Positions 3,293 to 10,863 of a stretch of 64,000 nt of DNA are shown piece by piece. Where the stretch lies: the NCBI GenBank assembly GCA_017541025.1, contig JAFXZY010000005.1:1-64000 (forward strand), given 5' to 3'. This DNA comes from Bacteroidaceae bacterium. GTDB lineage: Bacteria > Bacteroidota > Bacteroidia > Bacteroidales > Bacteroidaceae. The first letter of the stretch is position 1; each line of letters begins with the position of its first letter. Position numbers and translations under genes: made by a program. The notes beneath the pieces are model-generated. The model had not been told where the DNA came from. It made no database searches and was given only the letters and a program-made list of their open reading frames with translations.

Positions 3293-4684
3293 ATGAAAAG
3301 AAACTATTTTTTAAGCATTCTTGCAATGGCTTTATTCGTGTGCATTGGTTTTTCTTCATGTAGTAAAGAACCAACTCCAGAGTTGAAGGTTTCTCCCACG
3401 TCAATCAAGTTAGAATCTGTTGGAGGAAAGAGTGTAACTTTTGACATCTTTTGTAATACGAGCTGGAAAATAGAAGTGGATGAAGATTGGGTTGAAGTCT
3501 CACCATCTTATGGAACAGAGGATGGAACTATTGAAGTTACTGCAGAAGATAACCCAGATGACAGCAAACGCACTGCTACTATAAGCATAAAAGCGGGTGA
3601 ACTGGAAAAGAAAGTAAAAGTGACGCAGGAAGCAGGGCAAAGTTTAAGCGTATCCCCACAGAATCCCCAGCTTGCAGCCGACAAAGGAGCTACAGGAAAT
3701 TTCACTATTACTGCAAACACTAGTTGGAGTATAACGGGGGTTCCATCATGGCTTTCATTATCAGCAACACAAGGTAGTAATACTACAACCATTACAATGA
3801 CAACCACAGAGATGAATTTCAGTGATACTCCACTAACTGCCACACTTACCGTTACTGCAGGGGAAAAGACTGCAACAGTAACCGTAACACAAGAAGCAAA
3901 ATTTGATCCCACTATCAAAGTTTGGGCCGAAAATGAACTTATTATGAGTAATGGTTATTATACAGACCTCAAATTTAAGAATGTATTAGGCTATCACGAA
4001 GGCTATTATTATAAGTATGCTTTTGAGGTGAAGACGGAAGAGGATATTTATAATGAAATCATTCAAGGTGACGTATATGGGTCTGATGTCTATGACTATA
4101 CCATAATGTCGGGTCTAACCCCTAGTACAGATTTTGTCTATTGCTGTGTTCCTTATTCAGGCGACAGCAAATCACGTAAATATGGCAAAATGCTGATTCA
4201 GAATTTTAAAACCAAGTCGAATTCCACCTATTGCGATGCCGCAGTATCGGGATCATTTAATTCATCTTATTGGACCTATACAATTACTAAACAGCAGCGG
4301 TGTCACCATTATTATATGCTCTATACTTTTGATGGTAGTGCAGAAGCCTTATACAGTTCTGCTCAGATTGAGTTGGCATTGGTTATACGCAACAGGATAG
4401 AAGATAAAACCAATTATCCTAACTATGACTACTATCTAAACGACGGGACATCACGTATCGAAAGAACTGCAGGTGACTACGCATTCTTCCTTTGGACTTG
4501 GGGGGTTGATGATGCTGGTAATTTTTCCGGCAATATTTGTGGCACCTATGCAAATACTTCATCATCAGTACGACCCTTTAATGTTTTAGAGTCACCAGCA
4601 AATAGTGAATTAAAACCAATGAAGAAATTGACACGTCAACAGATGAATGAAAAAAACAAGGATTTGCGGATTGTTGTGAAATAA
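3293..4684 (+). CDS. BACON-domain surface lipoprotein
   Basis: A 463-residue predicted lipoprotein. The signal peptide ends in the lipobox FSSC with the lipidated Cys at residue 23. Two BACON domains follow (about 31-113 and 116-200), each with the typical TSWxIxxxxxWLxxSP-like core and a closing VTQEA. The rest (about 203-463) is a domain of unknown type rich in Tyr and Asn. BACON domains are Bacteroidetes Ig-like modules found on surface proteins that bind glycans or mucin and on some protease-linked proteins. The next gene, a C10 peptidase, starts 10 bases after the stop, so the two are probably cotranscribed. A role as surface partner or substrate receptor of that protease is inference. 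Confidence 0.8.
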   Translation: MKRNYFLSILAMALFVCIGFSSCSKEPTPELKVSPTSIKLESVGGKSVTFDIFCNTSWKIEVDEDWVEVSPSYGTEDGTIEVTAEDNPDDSKRTATISIKAGELEKKVKVTQEAGQSLSVSPQNPQLAADKGATGNFTITANTSWSITGVPSWLSLSATQGSNTTTITMTTTEMNFSDTPLTATLTVTAGEKTATVTVTQEAKFDPTIKVWAENELIMSNGYYTDLKFKNVLGYHEGYYYKYAFEVKTEEDIYNEIIQGDVYGSDVYDYTIMSGLTPSTDFVYCCVPYSGDSKSRKYGKMLIQNFKTKSNSTYCDAAVSGSFNSSYWTYTITKQQRCHHYYMLYTFDGSAEALYSSAQIELALVIRNRIEDKTNYPNYDYYLNDGTSRIERTAGDYAFFLWTWGVDDAGNFSGNICGTYANTSSSVRPFNVLESPANSELKPMKKLTRQQMNEKNKDLRIVVK

Positions 4685-4694
4685 ATTTACATTT

Positions 4695-6869
4695 ATGATC
4701 AAAAGCGAGAAAAGAATTTCTTCCTTCATGGCCATACTCCTAATTTGGGGGTATGGCCTCACTCTCCCGACATTATCTAATGCTGCTCAAAGAACCAAAC
4801 ATGTTACAGACAGCATAGCATACGCTATGATGAATCGTTCTGAGATGTTATCTAGAGGTAACAACAAAAAGTGTTTTTTACCAGAAATACGCTTGCGCTC
4901 CTCTGAACTTCATGATATGTCAAGGCAAAAACTTGGCAGTGACGAAGTTTTTTATGTCTATGGAGATTCAAGTGGTGGGAAAGGGTTTGTGATAGTGTCG
5001 GTTGATGACAGGATGCCAGAAATCCTCGCATACTCTCACGAAGAGTCTTTCCAGTCAGAAAGTATGCCTGCATCAACCCGCTATTGGTTAGAGTGTTATA
5101 TAGATGAGTATCTGAGTTTATATTCATTGAATGCACAGACTGATGAAGCTCTATCGCAATCTACAGATATCCGTCCAGATGGTGTTGAACCTATTTTAGG
5201 GAAATTACCTTGGGGGCAAAGTGACCCTTACAATGGACTCTGCCCTCTTTCTTTTGGAGGGAGATGTGTTGTTGGGTGTGTAGCAACAGCGATGTCTCAG
5301 GTAATGTGGACATATAAATGGCCAGCATGCGGAAAAGGAAATATAGAGTACGAAACCCGTACTCATCATATCCGAGTAAAGATGAATCTTGCCGACCATC
5401 CTATTCGCTGGGATATGATAAAGGAGGAATATCAAAGAGGGAAATATTCTGAGGAAGAGGCAAATGCTGTGGCAACATTAATGGCTATATGTGGTGCAGC
5501 AGTTCATATGGATTATGCACCTGATGGGAGTGGCGCTCGTCAGAGTGACATACTAAAAGCCTTGGTCAACAATTTCTATTATGATCCCGATGCAGCATTC
5601 TTACCCCGTGAGTATTTCACCTCTTCAGATTGGCATAGTTTGCTGCTTTCTGAACTAAACTCGGGGCGTGCTGTAAACTATGCGGGCCAAAGCCGAACTG
5701 ACGGAGGTCATTCTTTTGTTATTGATGGCTATGAAGCTGGCAGCAGTGCGACAAACCCCTATTATCATTTGAATTGGGGATGGAATGGTCACTGCAATGG
5801 ATATTATTCTTTGCCGAATTTACACCCATCTGAGGATGGGAGATACTATGTTAAAGAAGGATTTACGACAGGTCATCAAATGCTTATTGGGGTACATCCT
5901 GACGATGGAGAAACAGAGGCAAACAAAATGCTTAGGGCTGATGGTCTTAGAGTCATGCAGGCGCTTTTAAAACCAGGTGAATCTTCTGTCTTACGTGTGA
6001 ATGATATTAGTAATTTGTGCTATCGAACATTCCAGGGTCAGATTGCCTTACAACTACGTGACGAAGAGGGGAACTCCTTCATAGTAGGGAAAACGCCAAT
6101 AGATCCTATACCATTTCTAGAAAATATTTCAAATCAAAACTTTTCTTTTACCTTACCAGAGACTATCGAAGAGGGGAAGTACAATGTTAAATTGATAGGG
6201 ATTAATAACGACGGACAAATAACAGAAATGTATTCACGCTCTTCTCCTCAAATAACAGTTTCCCGGAATCCGTATGGAGATGAAGAATCGGATGGATTAA
6301 CTTTATTGTGCTCTTCCGAATTTGAAGTTTATAAGCAAACAGAATTAGATAGTATTCTCAATGTGAATATTTATGAATTGTATAATTATTCGGATGAAAT
6401 ATTAGAAGGCGATTTGCAACTGGAGATAGCATCAAAAGATGGCACGTCAATCATGACAATCGGAACATCTGTATGGCATCCGGCATTTGGTGCACAGGAG
6501 GCAGAGCAATTCCCTGTAACATTATATGGTTCTGTACCTGATTCATTAAGCAATGGAGAATATAGACTTTATGTTTTATTCTACCCTGTAGGGCAATCAT
6601 CTGCATGCAGAGTGAAGTTTTATGACCGAATAGACCCTACGAAAGTTCCTGTGGAATACTATCTCCCAATGATAATTAGTGACAAGGGAATCGTTGTCAA
6701 TAATGTCTCTTTTCCGAATACGACAAATATTCCTGCATTGTTGAATAAAACTCACGTACATCCTTATATTTGTTCTATTAATGGCATTTTGCAACAAAAC
6801 AAAAGAAAAGGAATCCACATCATCCGTATGAGTGACGGAACGTGCAAAAAGGTTTGGATTAGACAATAA
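4695..6869 (+). CDS. C10 family (streptopain-like) cysteine peptidase
   Basis: A 724-residue secreted cysteine protease of MEROPS family C10. A signal peptide ends near residue 30. An inhibitory Spi-type propeptide region follows (about 45-150), then the catalytic domain. The nucleophile is Cys195 in the motif GCVATAMSQ. The catalytic His is His339 in GGHSFVIDGY, followed by the NWGWNGHCNGYY segment that completes the active site. The C-terminal 300 residues form predicted beta-sandwich repeats, and the extreme C-terminus (IHIIRMSDGTCKKVWIRQ) resembles a short type IX secretion tail. It lies between a BACON lipoprotein and a cysteine-rich peptide precursor, all on one strand. Whether it processes that precursor is inference. 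The family includes streptococcal SpeB and Prevotella interpain A. Confidence 0.88.
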   Translation: MIKSEKRISSFMAILLIWGYGLTLPTLSNAAQRTKHVTDSIAYAMMNRSEMLSRGNNKKCFLPEIRLRSSELHDMSRQKLGSDEVFYVYGDSSGGKGFVIVSVDDRMPEILAYSHEESFQSESMPASTRYWLECYIDEYLSLYSLNAQTDEALSQSTDIRPDGVEPILGKLPWGQSDPYNGLCPLSFGGRCVVGCVATAMSQVMWTYKWPACGKGNIEYETRTHHIRVKMNLADHPIRWDMIKEEYQRGKYSEEEANAVATLMAICGAAVHMDYAPDGSGARQSDILKALVNNFYYDPDAAFLPREYFTSSDWHSLLLSELNSGRAVNYAGQSRTDGGHSFVIDGYEAGSSATNPYYHLNWGWNGHCNGYYSLPNLHPSEDGRYYVKEGFTTGHQMLIGVHPDDGETEANKMLRADGLRVMQALLKPGESSVLRVNDISNLCYRTFQGQIALQLRDEEGNSFIVGKTPIDPIPFLENISNQNFSFTLPETIEEGKYNVKLIGINNDGQITEMYSRSSPQITVSRNPYGDEESDGLTLLCSSEFEVYKQTELDSILNVNIYELYNYSDEILEGDLQLEIASKDGTSIMTIGTSVWHPAFGAQEAEQFPVTLYGSVPDSLSNGEYRLYVLFYPVGQSSACRVKFYDRIDPTKVPVEYYLPMIISDKGIVVNNVSFPNTTNIPALLNKTHVHPYICSINGILQQNKRKGIHIIRMSDGTCKKVWIRQ

Positions 6870-6943: not shown

Positions 6944-7492
6944 ATGAAGGAAAACAAAAACGAAGAACTCCAGTCGCGAAGGGAGTTTTTCAAGAGATCA
7001 GCAAAAAAAGTTCTACCAATAATTGGTCTTGTAACTTTTACTCCTATGTTTTTTTCTGCATGTGATAAAGAAGATGATCTTCTTGGGAACTCGTCCTGTT
7101 CATGGTGCAGCAATGGTTGTGGATCTGCTTGTAGTAATAATTCAACATCATCATCTTGTTCTGATTGCAGTTCTGTTTGTTCCTCAGAATGTCAGGGGCA
7201 GACGAAGCAATCAGGTGGTGGCTGTACAGGTTCTTCATGTAGTAGCCAATGTGCCTCAGAATGTCAGGGGTATACAAAAAGTAGTGGTTGTACAGGCTCT
7301 TCATGTTCAGGTTCTTGCGTAGGCTATTGTAAAAATGGGTGTGGCGGAAAATGCAAAAATGAGTGTGGTGACGGATGTAAAGAATCATGCGCTAGAAAAG
7401 TGGCTGCATGTACCAGTTGCTCTTCTGCTTGCCGTTCTGGCTGTTATACAGGTTGTTCTAGTGGCTGTTATTATCATGCCAATCTAAGTTAA
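6944..7492 (+). CDS. CXXX-repeat radical SAM target peptide with Tat-lipoprotein leader
   Basis: A 182-residue precursor of a ribosomally made, radical-SAM-modified product, recognised from its repeat pattern and neighbours. After residue 40 there are 27 further cysteines, mostly spaced as C-x3-C (for example CVGYCKNGCGGKCKNECGDG). The other residues are mainly Gly, Ser, Lys, Asn and Thr. The N-terminus carries SRREFFKR (Arg12-Arg13), a textbook twin-arginine motif, then a hydrophobic stretch and a lipobox-like FFSAC with Cys40. The peptide is thus predicted to be exported folded or modified and then lipidated. The radical SAM maturase gene starts 12 bases after its stop. This matches the precursor class that NCBI calls Cys-Xaa-Xaa-Xaa repeat radical SAM target proteins. 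The actual modification is not visible from sequence. Confidence 0.85.
   Translation: MKENKNEELQSRREFFKRSAKKVLPIIGLVTFTPMFFSACDKEDDLLGNSSCSWCSNGCGSACSNNSTSSSCSDCSSVCSSECQGQTKQSGGGCTGSSCSSQCASECQGYTKSSGCTGSSCSGSCVGYCKNGCGGKCKNECGDGCKESCARKVAACTSCSSACRSGCYTGCSSGCYYHANLS
7183..7312 (+). repeat. Imperfect tandem duplication inside the cysteine-rich precursor
   Basis: CTCAGAATGTCAGGGG occurs at 7183-7198 and again at 7255-7270, and TGTACAGG occurs at 7223-7230 and 7289-7296. The unit is therefore about 66-72 bases with a small in-frame length difference. This points to growth of the precursor by duplication of a C-x4-C-x3-C-x3-C block. Confidence 0.75.
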
Positions 7493-7504
7493 TTGGTTCG
7501 GTAA

Positions 7505-8719
7505 ATGATAAAAATTAAGGAGAATAGTGGAATTTGGCAATCAGGTGTTGCTAAGACTATCACTTTCATTGTCACCAAAGACTGTCAGTTGGCATGTAAG
7601 TACTGCTACTTAGTTGGGAAAAATTCTAAAGAGCGGATGACATGGGAGATGGCAAAGAAAGTCATTGACTACATTTTGGATCATGAAAATGATTTTAAAG
7701 AAGAGAGTGTCATTTGGGACTTTATTGGCGGTGAGCCATTTCTGGAGATAGACCTTATAGAAAAGATTTGCGACTACTTAAAAATGGAAATGTATAGAAG
7801 GGACCATCATTGGTTTAATTCATATCGTTTTTCGTTTTCTACTAATGGTATCAACTATCATGAGGATAAGGTGCAGCAGTTTATCAAGAAGAATTATAGT
7901 CATCTAAGTATTGGTATCACAATTGACGGAACTGAGTTAAAACATGACTTGAACCGTGTGTATAAACATTCGGAGAAAGGTTCGTATAAAGATGTCGTTC
8001 GGAATATTCCTTTATGGCTTGAACAATTTCCAGAAGCAGCAACGAAAGTTACTATTTCCTCGCCAGATATTCCGTATATCAAGGAGAGTGTGCTCCATCT
8101 CTATGACTTGGGTATTAAAGAGGTGAACATCAATTGTGTATTCGAGGACGTATGGAAGGAGGGTGATGATGCACTCTTTGAGGCACAGTTAATAGGGCTG
8201 GCTGATGCCATTATTGATATGGGCCTCTACCGTGATCATGCTTGCTCCTTCTATGCTGATTTTTTAGGAAAGCCGATGGATCCGGAACGTGACAATCAGA
8301 ACTGGTGTGGTGCGGGCAAAATGTTAGCAGTTGATGCGGCTGGCAACTTCTATCCCTGTACGCGCTTTGCTGCTTACTCGCTTAGGTCTAAACCTGCTTG
8401 GATTATTGGCAATGTGAAAGATGGCATAGACCAGAATAAACTACGCCCGTTCCTGACGCTGGATCGCACGACCCAAAGCAAGCAGGAGTGTATTGACTGC
8501 GAGGTGGCTTCTGGCTGTGCGTGGTGTCAGGGTGAAAACTATGATGCTGCTGATACACATACTATCAATCAGCGAGCTATGGCTATATGCAAAATGCATA
8601 AGGCTCGCGTCCGTGCCAATAACTATTACTGGAACAAACTCTATCGTAAGTTAGAGATAGAAGGAGAACGAGAGGAGTTTGAGAAAAACAAGCGCGAAGT
8701 AAAACCCGAAATCTGTTGA
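7505..8719 (+). CDS. Radical SAM/SPASM peptide maturase, CXXX-repeat system
   Basis: A 404-residue iron-sulfur enzyme predicted to modify the cysteine-rich precursor encoded just upstream. The radical SAM cluster motif is CQLACKYC (Cys27, Cys31, Cys34). FIGGEPFLE is the usual SAM-binding GGE region, and FSFSTNGIN is the next conserved strand. The C-terminal SPASM domain begins at Cys268 (CGAGKMLAVDAAGNFYPC) and continues with CIDC, SGCAWC and a final Cys near residue 360, enough ligands for two auxiliary clusters. Domain order, length and neighbours match the radical SAM peptide maturases of the CXXX-repeat target family. The next gene overlaps or nearly abuts this one, so coupled translation is likely. 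Acting in the cytoplasm before Tat export is the simplest reading. Confidence 0.87.
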   Translation: MIKIKENSGIWQSGVAKTITFIVTKDCQLACKYCYLVGKNSKERMTWEMAKKVIDYILDHENDFKEESVIWDFIGGEPFLEIDLIEKICDYLKMEMYRRDHHWFNSYRFSFSTNGINYHEDKVQQFIKKNYSHLSIGITIDGTELKHDLNRVYKHSEKGSYKDVVRNIPLWLEQFPEAATKVTISSPDIPYIKESVLHLYDLGIKEVNINCVFEDVWKEGDDALFEAQLIGLADAIIDMGLYRDHACSFYADFLGKPMDPERDNQNWCGAGKMLAVDAAGNFYPCTRFAAYSLRSKPAWIIGNVKDGIDQNKLRPFLTLDRTTQSKQECIDCEVASGCAWCQGENYDAADTHTINQRAMAICKMHKARVRANNYYWNKLYRKLEIEGEREEFEKNKREVKPEIC

Positions 8720-8724
8720 TTACG

Positions 8725-9660
8725 ATGCTACAATACCTTATTATATTATTAGATAAAGGAAGTTCCTCGTTTTGTCATTACAGAGTTCCCTTGAAAAGCA
8801 AAGGGAATAGCTTAATCCCTATTGAGATGTTGAAGCAAGGCATTCGTTTTGGCATGACAGAGAACTTGATGATTCAATATGTATATCCAGATTATGTACT
8901 GCCAACGGAATATACAGAAGTCATCGAAAGCATTGACCACTCGAAGATAAAGCCTATGAAGGATGGTGCTGATGTATGGGTGACGGAAAGCATCAAGGAC
9001 ATCAATGCCAAAGTGCCTGTCGTTTGGCAGACAGACAAGAATACCCTCTTCAAGAGCGAAGCAGACATCATTAATTCTTTGAAAAATGTTCCAAGGCTTA
9101 ACATCGTGATGACGGATGTTGATTCCTTCACAAACGAGGACTTTGAAAAATATAAACAGCTACTAAACGCTCTTTCAGGGTATATTGAAAAGCTATACCT
9201 TGAAGAGAAAAATCCACAACTAAATTTGCTTACTGACCGCATAATGCTCTCGAAGATGAACAATTGTGGAGCTGGTGATACAACAATTACATTAGCACCC
9301 AATGGAAAGTTTTACGTTTGTCCTGCCTTCTACTATGAAGACGAAACAGACAGCATTGGCGAATTAGAGCATGTGCTTGACATCAAAAACAAGCAGTTAT
9401 ATAAGTTGGAATATGCCCCGATATGCCGTCATTGTGATGCGTATCAATGTAAACGCTGTATTTGGCTCAATCGTAAGACGACACTCGAAGTGAACACCCC
9501 ATCACATGAACAATGCGTTGTTGCTCACTTGGAACGCAATGCCAGTCGTAATCTGTTGAATTGCATCCGTAAGCACAACTCTTTCCTGCCTGAGCAGGAA
9601 GACATTAAGGAAATAGATTATTTAGACCCCTTTGACAAAAAAGAAGAATGGGGTTGGTAG
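8725..9660 (+). CDS. CXXX repeat peptide maturase, SPASM domain without radical SAM motif
   Basis: A 311-residue protein from the ATG at 8725; a TTG at 8716 that overlaps the previous stop is an alternative start. The N-terminal two thirds have the feel of a radical SAM barrel but contain no CxxxCxxC motif. The C-terminal part is a clear SPASM-type domain: Cys181 in NNCGAGDTTITLAPNG, a GKFYVC, then ICRHCDAYQCKRC and a last Cys in EQCVV. This fits the companion protein annotated elsewhere as CXXX repeat peptide maturase. It may act as a partner or carrier for the active radical SAM enzyme, like other pseudo-radical-SAM proteins in Bacteroidales peptide systems. Function in detail is inference. 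Confidence 0.75.
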   Translation: MLQYLIILLDKGSSSFCHYRVPLKSKGNSLIPIEMLKQGIRFGMTENLMIQYVYPDYVLPTEYTEVIESIDHSKIKPMKDGADVWVTESIKDINAKVPVVWQTDKNTLFKSEADIINSLKNVPRLNIVMTDVDSFTNEDFEKYKQLLNALSGYIEKLYLEEKNPQLNLLTDRIMLSKMNNCGAGDTTITLAPNGKFYVCPAFYYEDETDSIGELEHVLDIKNKQLYKLEYAPICRHCDAYQCKRCIWLNRKTTLEVNTPSHEQCVVAHLERNASRNLLNCIRKHNSFLPEQEDIKEIDYLDPFDKKEEWGW

Positions 9661-9684
9661 TATTTAACTAATTAGAAACAAAAT

Positions 9685-9969
9685 ATGGAAACAAAAAAAA
9701 TTGTGGGACAAGTAACCCCAGAAGAGATTGCAGAGATTCAAACACTCTTTGAGAGAAAAAATGGTTTGACAGAACTCGCAAAGGTCGTAACCGCAGATAA
9801 TAATGAATTGTATGAGAAACTTGTAAAAGATATGGGCGAAACAAGTACTAAGTTTCAGCAATGGTGGGAGCAAAAGTCAAAGCAATATGGATGGGAGAGC
9901 CATCCAAGAGGTAACTGGGAGATTAACTTCCAAAATGGAGACATCTCTTTGGTTGTTAAAGACGCGTAG
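9685..9969 (+). CDS. CXXX repeat peptide modification system small protein
   Basis: A 94-residue soluble protein with no signal peptide. The first part is helical and charged (ITPEEIAEIQ-like, residues 9-60). The second part has the Trp-rich stretch KFQQWWEQKSKQYGWES and a short beta-like ending. Size, sequence style and position behind the SPASM-only gene match the small accessory proteins annotated as CXXX repeat peptide modification system protein. A role as leader-binding or scaffold protein is possible but not shown by the sequence. It is 24 bases from the previous stop and 24 from the next start. Confidence 0.7.
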   Translation: METKKIVGQVTPEEIAEIQTLFERKNGLTELAKVVTADNNELYEKLVKDMGETSTKFQQWWEQKSKQYGWESHPRGNWEINFQNGDISLVVKDA

Positions 9970-9993: not shown

Positions 9994-10863
9994 ATGATGA
10001 AACGATATAGTAACATTATCTGTCTTTGTTTTATACTAAATATAACAACAATCCTTCTTACTGGTTGTACAGGAAATTCTGTCGATATTTCCAAACTTTT
10101 AGCAGAACGTGATTCGCTTAAAGAGAGTCTTTTGGCTAAACAAAGTGAGAATGATAACCTAAGTGGTTATTTGCAAGCTGTATCGGAAGGGCTTGATAGC
10201 ATCGCTATTCAGGAAAAGTTCATACGTGATGGAGGGCCAGAAGGTACAGGTATGAACAAAGAACAAATGAAAAGGTGTTTAAAAGAACTTGCCGAAATGC
10301 TTGCTCGGCAAAGAATTCGTATTGCTGCACTTGAGGATTCTCTTAATATGGGCGGCAATGGTTCACAGGAATTACATAGCATTGTAAGTTATCTGAATGA
10401 GCAATTGGCAGCAAAAGAGCATGAAATAAATGAATTACGTTCTGAAATAAAGCGTAAGGATTTAACTATTGCTCAAATAAACAAGAAAGTATCTATATTG
10501 TATGAGTCCGTTGATAGTTTAAATGATGTTAGCAATAAAAAAGATACTATTCTTGTAGTTCAAAGTGAAATGATGAATACGTGTTATTTCCAAATGGGAA
10601 AAGAAAATGAATTAAAGCAGGCAGGATTTCTTAAGAAGGGGAAATTAAATCCCAATGCATTAACACCCGATAAATGCCAGAAAATAAACATTACGGAGTT
10701 TGATGAAATTTTATTATATTCCAAGAAACCGAAGATTCTTACAACGCCGCCACCTCAGAATTCATATAGAATAGAGCGCAACCCTGATGGTACGTCAACA
10801 CTCTATATTGATGATGCAACTTCTTTTTGGAGCATTTCAAATTATCTTGTAATTCAACTATAA
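9994..10863 (+). CDS. Coiled-coil lipoprotein
   Basis: A 289-residue predicted lipoprotein. The signal peptide ends in LTGC. Residues 35-190 are strongly coiled coil, with repeated Leu/Glu/Lys heptads such as RDSLKESLLAKQSENDNL. The C-terminal 90 residues are a compact domain resembling other Bacteroidetes periplasmic lipoproteins of unknown function. No enzymatic motif is seen. It lies in a tight same-strand run with the peptide-modification genes upstream and LysM genes downstream, so an envelope-anchoring or spacer role fits the context. Confidence 0.7.
   Translation: MMKRYSNIICLCFILNITTILLTGCTGNSVDISKLLAERDSLKESLLAKQSENDNLSGYLQAVSEGLDSIAIQEKFIRDGGPEGTGMNKEQMKRCLKELAEMLARQRIRIAALEDSLNMGGNGSQELHSIVSYLNEQLAAKEHEINELRSEIKRKDLTIAQINKKVSILYESVDSLNDVSNKKDTILVVQSEMMNTCYFQMGKENELKQAGFLKKGKLNPNALTPDKCQKINITEFDEILLYSKKPKILTTPPPQNSYRIERNPDGTSTLYIDDATSFWSISNYLVIQL

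Follow-up and report, generated by a model that had tools for sequence, protein, structure and literature searches.

How does a peptide crowded with cysteines, encoded beside radical S-adenosylmethionine (SAM) enzymes, leave the cell that makes it? This question is raised by a four-gene locus (6944-9969, forward strand) in a 64,000-nucleotide stretch of DNA from a Bacteroidaceae bacterium, hereafter the window, which encodes a CXXX-repeat precursor, a radical SAM enzyme with a SPASM domain, a SPASM-only partner and a small accessory protein. A preliminary description had placed these genes in this order within 3 kb, had counted 28 cysteines in the precursor and had named the system type; all four open reading frames were found at the positions given in Table 1, the exact count is 28, and NCBIfam agrees on the type for three of the four genes. 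Maturase, partner and accessory protein exceed the cut-offs of the CXXX-repeat radical SAM families, whereas the precursor stays below those of the target families (25.4 against 50 bits for TIGR04117, no match to TIGR04114). Overlooked, however, were a twin-arginine translocation (Tat) signal, a lipobox-like site and a surface-export motif, which are the features most telling about the travel of the product. We propose, with a probability of roughly 70% and from sequence, that this is a radical SAM system of the type that makes ribosomally synthesised and post-translationally modified peptides (RiPPs), in which the precursor would be modified in the cytosol and its folded, cross-linked product exported through Tat, here to be lipidated and displayed on the cell surface.

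Twin-arginine signals on the precursors

The leader of the window precursor combines a twin arginine, a hydrophobic (h-) region and a cleavage site, and thus has the features of a Tat substrate as judged by motif rather than by a signal-peptide predictor. This architecture recurs throughout the family. We collected open reading frames on the strand of the radical SAM gene that hold at least five CX3C spacings, irrespective of their start and with the window included, and obtained 100 complete frames and one cut by a contig end. A twin arginine is present in 99 of the 100, the window's among them, L080 being the exception; 97 match the pattern RRx[FL][FLM] and two more (L078, RRQFI; L079, RREFI) were recognised by reading. 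The form SRR.FFK occurs in 58 of the 97 pattern-matched precursors, and a proline stands 13 residues after the first arginine in 91 of them; counting all positions from +12 to +15, 96 have one. The sequence KTLP is found also in L107 and L108, whose leaders are not of the Tat type, which, together with the proline at +13, suggests that a recognition motif for the enzymes overlaps the Tat signal.

By a heuristic, the signals end in an AxA-type site in 69 of the 99 precursors and in a lipobox-like site in 29, with one unassigned. The window belongs to the lipobox class, although its site is imperfect, with Phe at -3 in place of the classic Leu. By motif, its FSAC-DKEDD segment carries both marks of a Bacteroidota surface lipoprotein, the lipobox and the sequence C-X-K-(D/E)2-X, which excerpts of a study of Capnocytophaga give as the optimum for surface lipoprotein export (PMC5080379). 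Within the lipobox class, 7 of the 29 precursors, including that of the window, fit the surface-export pattern with either K or R, and 14 carry at least two acidic residues at +2 to +6. A lipobox-class precursor with 40 cysteines (C-D-R-E-D-D) is encoded with tatA and tatC in Hoylesella loescheii strain An865 (L037).

tatA and tatC beside the gene set

The genes of the translocase itself accompany the family. Clustering of the neighbouring genes in 66 loci recovered a gene for a protein of about 76 residues in 56 loci and tatC in 51, always downstream and on the strand of the radical SAM gene; Pfam assigned four of the small proteins to TatA_B_E (PF02416) and one TatC example to PF00902, and both again in L111. 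Dropping the duplicates L020, L047, L073 and L077 left 62 loci with distinct radical SAM ends. Among the non-duplicate loci, 53 extend 3 kb or more downstream; in 42 of these, tatA and tatC both follow on the same strand, while four have tatA only (L021, L025, L039, L055) and seven have neither (L005, L010, L051, L057, L071, L078, L080). Precursor, radical SAM enzyme, partner, accessory protein, tatA and tatC stand in this order on a human faecal contig (L111, MT837480.1, 2222-6270), which was deposited as 'Bacteriophage sp.' but looks bacterial.

It is the linkage of tatC that is the evidence, not its presence: all 10 genomes of the order with a TIGR04115 match have TatC, but so do 101 of 119 genomes of the order, and we discarded mere presence as an argument. 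A tatC lies near the gene set in 7 of these 10 genomes, and 5 of the 10 have a further tatC elsewhere; two TatC matches occur in 5 of 115 other sampled genomes, one of them a fragment (hand count). As a control, none of the sub-cut-off radical SAM matches listed in TatC-positive genomes (34) lies on the contig that carries tatC (hand count). In a tree of 65 TatC sequences (44 from the operons, 21 others), 31 operon copies form one clade (support 100/99) and eight another, with no other TatC inside either, and the labels change 5 times, against 17.9 by shuffling. Outside these two clades fall the operon copies of L014, L016, L072 and L074 (with one housekeeping copy) and, elsewhere, that of L079. 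The operon TatC proteins thus form lineages of their own, largely but not wholly.

The window departs from this pattern. Its system had been called complete, and the four genes are indeed present, but the adjoining tat genes of most related loci are missing: a similarity search of the 64 kb found no tatC, and its best tatA match (E 0.46) is not credible. Elsewhere in the window's genome, contig C39 carries a single match each to tatC and tatA, separated by about 3.6 kb; this genome is 83.85% complete, so that little weight can be given to absences. A tree of the radical SAM enzymes was built from 30 of 32 chosen sequences (L011 and L078 were left out; L080 and L109 have long branches, and the label of L027 is uncertain, its contig ending 2.4 kb downstream). 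The window pairs there with L005, which has no tat genes, at weak support (87/27), and its next neighbour is L006 (98/91), where both genes are present. Since the window is nested in a clade in which 15 of 21 sampled rows have tatA and tatC, loss of its own copy is the simplest reading.

Exchange of leader and exporter

Four loci (L080, L106, L107, L108) encode short precursors without a twin arginine, and in each an ATP-binding cassette (ABC) transporter adjoins the radical SAM set; the precursors of L106-L108 have fewer CX3C spacings than our sample threshold. With these four transporters as queries we examined 68 loci, comprising 61 with twin-arginine leaders, the four query loci and three cut off upstream. 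No ABC match lies within 4 kb in any of the 61 twin-arginine loci, in counts uncorrected for kinship. Nor has the window's radical SAM gene a match to the four queries within 4 kb. A leader protease and ABC exporter of the Qhp kind were thus not found beside it, the scanned flanking genes encoding a C10 peptidase, a BACON protein and a Cbp1-like protein. A further such locus (L109; NC_013164.1, 44-4287), on plasmid pAPRE01 of Anaerococcus prevotii, combines a short precursor of four cysteines, again without a twin arginine, with a fused radical SAM-partner protein and an ABC transporter. Among the loci examined here, a change of leader type thus goes with a change of exporter.

The plasmid of L109, from strain DSM 20548, is typed as conjugative, and its ABC-type CXXX cluster lies next to class III lanthipeptide genes. 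The accessory gene is in pieces there: the beginning of TIGR04116 is matched by a 41-residue frame (32.9 bits, cut-off 50), and another match lies at 2511-2648.

These observations bear on the idea that SRREFFK...LP is purely a RiPP leader for the enzymes, that it resembles a Tat signal by coincidence and that export takes some other route. The Leu-Pro motif also occurs in ABC-type leaders devoid of a twin arginine, so part of the leader probably does serve enzyme recognition, and the window has no tat genes. We nevertheless regard such a coincidence as very improbable, given that 42 of 53 loci have tatA and tatC adjoining the set, that by the heuristic 98 of 99 precursors have an AxA-type or lipobox-like site after the h-region, and given the ABC exporters in the four loci whose leaders are without a twin arginine.

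Modifying enzymes and probable chemistry

The CX3CX2C motif of the radical SAM enzyme (7583-7606) and its seven SPASM cysteines (between 8306 and 8590) are invariant in 13 aligned sequences, chosen from 57 matched ones plus that of the window. Besides its own family, the enzyme scores best with PapB (197 bits, below the PapB cut-off of 340 in NF047865), CcpM, SCIFF (120 bits), nif11 and QhpD (109 bits). Among solved structures, 5wgg alone is a strong relative (E 8.5e-31); we take it to be the SCIFF maturase CteB. Eight cysteines are invariant among 56 aligned partner sequences, which have no CX3CX2C motif. A barrel common to partner and radical SAM enzyme was considered and rejected: the 115 columns that align in a comparison of profiles (probability 82%, E 1e-5) lie around the SPASM part and do not show one.

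The radical SAM enzyme is fused to the partner in L056, L080 and L109, and the partner to the accessory protein in L104 and L105; these fusions argue for a single complex of the three proteins. Because neither L051, a locus with a Tat signal, nor L106-L108 gave a similarity match to the accessory protein (L040 is cut off), this protein may be dispensable or replaced. Its best solved relative (E 0.069) was too weak to be credited.

The cross-links made by this complex would most likely be cysteine thioethers, the type of bond formed by the closest enzymes of known function. PapB acts on a Cys-X3 spacing and joins Cys to Asp or Glu at Cys+4 (PMC9413430). In the cysteine arrays the residue at Cys+4 is another Cys, unlike the PapB acceptor. 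There is a realistic possibility, though one we rate below even odds, that the core is modified otherwise than by thioethers to non-alpha carbons, namely by sactionine (S-C-alpha) bonds, epimerisation or other SPASM chemistry: the mixed X residues (S, G, T, K), with X2 and X3 rich in glycine, suit chemistry at C-alpha better than at C-beta, and Asp or Glu is not found at Cys+4. On the other hand, ranthipeptide or Cys-to-Asp/Glu thioether enzymes (PapB, SCIFF and QhpD) are among the named families with which the window enzyme scores best, and the sactipeptide family RumMC scores lower (86 bits).

The cysteine-rich core

Successive cysteines of the window precursor are four residues apart in 17 of 27 cases; when the core (residues 51-182) was shuffled, none of 20000 sequences reached this number (mean 2.7, highest 11). 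The internal duplication noticed previously is real, with direct repeats of 26 and 29 nucleotides that are 88% and 86% alike. The same description had judged the core unusually long, which the family does not support: the 97 twin-arginine precursors, window included, hold 8-74 cysteines (median 17, with 69 precursors below 28) and measure 80-434 residues (median 119, with 72 precursors below 182), and the longest unbroken period-4 run spans 8 cysteines in the window against a family maximum of 41. By the standard of its family, the core is thus ordinary. Across 1791 CXXX units from 95 precursors, X1 is mostly S, K or T, X2 G, and X3 S, G or T, with glycine making up 38.0% at X2 and 23.2% at X3 and proline almost absent; no single acceptor residue was found, and no X position favours one type of acceptor. 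A Pfam scan of ten precursors gave no matches. Two long precursors, L021 (4029-5255) and L059 (1223-2557), show by eye a cysteine-poor insert between cysteine arrays, and such an insert was judged from precursor length in L025 (517-1821). In L021 there is a weak match to Fib_succ_major (21.8 bits, cut-off 33.9); for L059 and L025 this family was rejected, Pfam showing nothing at E 0.01.

An array of this kind could also consist of free thiols that bind metal or clusters, in which case the radical SAM pair would have some minor or other task and Tat would be used because the protein is a metalloprotein. Tat often carries cofactor-loaded proteins. Bufferins, in addition, are cysteine-containing RiPPs with signal peptides that chelate copper, as stated in excerpts of PMC12452194. 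We consider this unlikely, although the counter-evidence is weak: the families shared by at least six of the 66 loci are the genes of the operon and a small helix-turn-helix (HTH)-like gene (17 loci), and no metal-handling family was recognised among these neighbours, which were identified by shared family rather than annotated singly.

Proposed mechanism and its weak points

In the mechanism that we propose, the radical SAM enzyme, partner and accessory protein would bind the leader in the cytosol and cross-link the core, and the cross-linked product would fold. A folded product could not be threaded through Sec. Tat passes folded proteins, and the product would therefore leave by this translocase, so that export would wait for modification. 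Signal peptidase II would then lipidate Cys40, and the C-D-K-E-D-D segment would direct the ladder to the cell surface; family members with an AxA-type site would be released in soluble form into the periplasm. In the genome of the window, the tatC/tatA pair on contig C39 would have to perform the export, the set's own copy having most simply been lost. As to the role of the product, a displayed structural polymer or a metal- or thiol-active surface polymer is our guess.

Several observations weigh against this proposal. With both tat genes missing from the window, the case for Tat use there comes from the signal itself, and 11 of the 53 loci have no tatC in reach. The presence of TatC is uninformative in an order where it is so common, and the operon TatC proteins are not one clade, at least four changes being forced and 5 of 44 copies falling outside the two clades. 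The ABC genes of the four exchange loci were themselves the queries, so that their 4 of 4 holds by construction and is no test, some of the 61 twin-arginine loci have less than 4 kb of flank on one side, and L056, which has Tat signals, carries an ABC match 4.1 kb away, just beyond the limit. The exchange as a whole comes from about three lineages (L106-L108, which are one genus, L080 and L109). The accessory protein, for which neither L051 nor L106-L108 gave a similarity match, is not cleanly tied to either the Tat or the ABC route. About three of the 29 heuristic lipobox calls are doubtful (L016, L031, L056), and the Cys at Cys+4 departs from the Asp or Glu acceptor of PapB.

Features and surroundings of the locus

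For the partner, the mechanical list of open reading frames gives a TTG start at 8716; the ATG at 8725 is the best start because the methionine there is nearly invariant among the aligned partners. With this start, the gaps between the four genes are 12, 5 and 24 bases.

Table 1. Positions in the window of the four genes and of the motifs and segments of the precursor
Feature	Position	Strand	Basis
CXXX-repeat precursor, 182 residues, 28 Cys	6944-7492	+	open reading frame, Cys count; sub-cut-off TIGR04117 match
Twin-arginine (Tat) motif SRREFFK, residues 11-17	6974-6994	+	motif
Leu-Pro in h-region, residues 24-25, candidate enzyme-recognition motif	7013-7018	+	
Lipobox-like site FSAC, residues 37-40, Cys40 predicted lipidation site	7052-7063	+	motif, heuristic
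Candidate surface lipoprotein export signal C-D-K-E-D-D	7061-7078	+	fits C-X-K-(D/E)2-X
Cys-repeat core, 27 Cys, residues 51-182	7094-7489	+	
Radical SAM/SPASM maturase, 404 residues	7505-8719	+	TIGR04115, 635.6 bits (cut-off 350)
SPASM-only partner without CX3CX2C	8725-9660	+	TIGR04119, 244.2 bits (cut-off 150)
Accessory protein, 94 residues	9685-9969	+	TIGR04116, 84.1 bits (cut-off 50)

Upstream of the precursor (3293-6869) lie genes for a BACON-domain protein and a C10 peptidase (4695-6869) with a Spi inhibitor domain, and the next gene downstream (9994-10863) matches the model of the Cbp1 family collagen-binding adhesin (199.7 bits, cut-off 90). A link to these flanking genes was rejected, the C10 peptidase being matched in 2, the BACON protein in 1 and the Cbp1-like protein in 1 of 69 other loci. 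Relatives of the window's Cbp1-like (52% identity) and LysM (48%) genes are also encoded in L037. The small HTH-like gene recurs in 17 of the 66 loci (e.g. L073, 12506-12745); its HTH was read by eye, and the one example scanned gave no Pfam match over the cut-off.

A contig scan found 56 loci, which by their titles come mostly from metagenome-assembled genomes of gut Bacteroidales, many from ruminants, with one planctomycete; their radical SAM enzymes are 57-86% identical to that of the window (best segment). Matches above the TIGR04115 cut-off occur in 10 of the 392 genomes from the order and in 6 of 395 genomes sampled over the phylum, the window's genome being counted in both. This genome holds a second cluster on contig C94 (L071), whose precursor (L001) has 42 cysteines and passes both TIGR04117 (68.9 bits) and TIGR04114 (30.2 bits). 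A search of the genome with the leader profile returned both precursors and one short, cysteine-poor frame with a twin-arginine leader, which lies in the second cluster (L071, 9633 onward) between the partner and accessory genes.

Relation to described systems

Among named systems, the closest is the NCBIfam CXXX-repeat system (TIGR04115, TIGR04119 and TIGR04116, with targets TIGR04114, TIGR04117 and TIGR04118): three window proteins pass its cut-offs, and the precursor has CXXX repeats but scores below those of the targets. The names and descriptions of these families are silent on Tat, tatA and tatC, the lipobox and the ABC alternative. In the open-access literature (subscription papers lay outside the scope), we found no product or role described under the CXXX family names, in agreement with the earlier statement that no product structure or role had been described, and nothing in titles or abstracts that ties Tat to a radical SAM peptide. 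The locus would be a new version of a system that we found only as family names.

Compared with PapB, the window has an additional SPASM partner, an accessory protein and a Tat signal. In the Qhp system, as excerpts of PMC7876137 describe it, a radical SAM enzyme makes thioethers in the cytoplasm and QhpE cuts the product before its translocation through the ABC transporter QhpF. A likeness to this is seen in the relative L080, which has an ABC transporter and a QhpE-like subtilase (111 bits, below the cut-off of 165), whereas the window type has a Tat signal in place of leader protease and ABC exporter, and its radical SAM enzyme stays far below the QhpD cut-off (109 against 453 bits). Excerpts on bufferins and on the RiPP-lipoprotein DybA (PMC12452194, PMC12636315) describe cysteine-containing precursors with true signal peptides, some of them lipoproteins. 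These depend on multinuclear non-haem iron-dependent oxidative enzymes (MNIO) and, for bufferins, on Sec, in contrast to the radical SAM enzyme and Tat signal of the window; the words 'Tat' and 'twin-arginine' do not occur in the main texts of the two papers.

We see an even chance that these loci constitute the first class of Tat-exported RiPP-type products with a TatAC of its own, in which dozens of cross-links would make a rigid ladder, folding would act as the checkpoint for modification and the product would then be lipidated and displayed on the cell surface. Excerpts of PMC12452194 call Sec signal peptides rare in bacterial RiPPs and pose as a question how premature export is avoided. 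If our proposal is true, Tat would answer this question, as a translocase for folded cargo is placed beside the modifying enzymes, and the relatives with ordinary leaders and an ABC exporter would offer a natural comparison. It would also link radical SAM chemistry to the cell surface of gut Bacteroidales.

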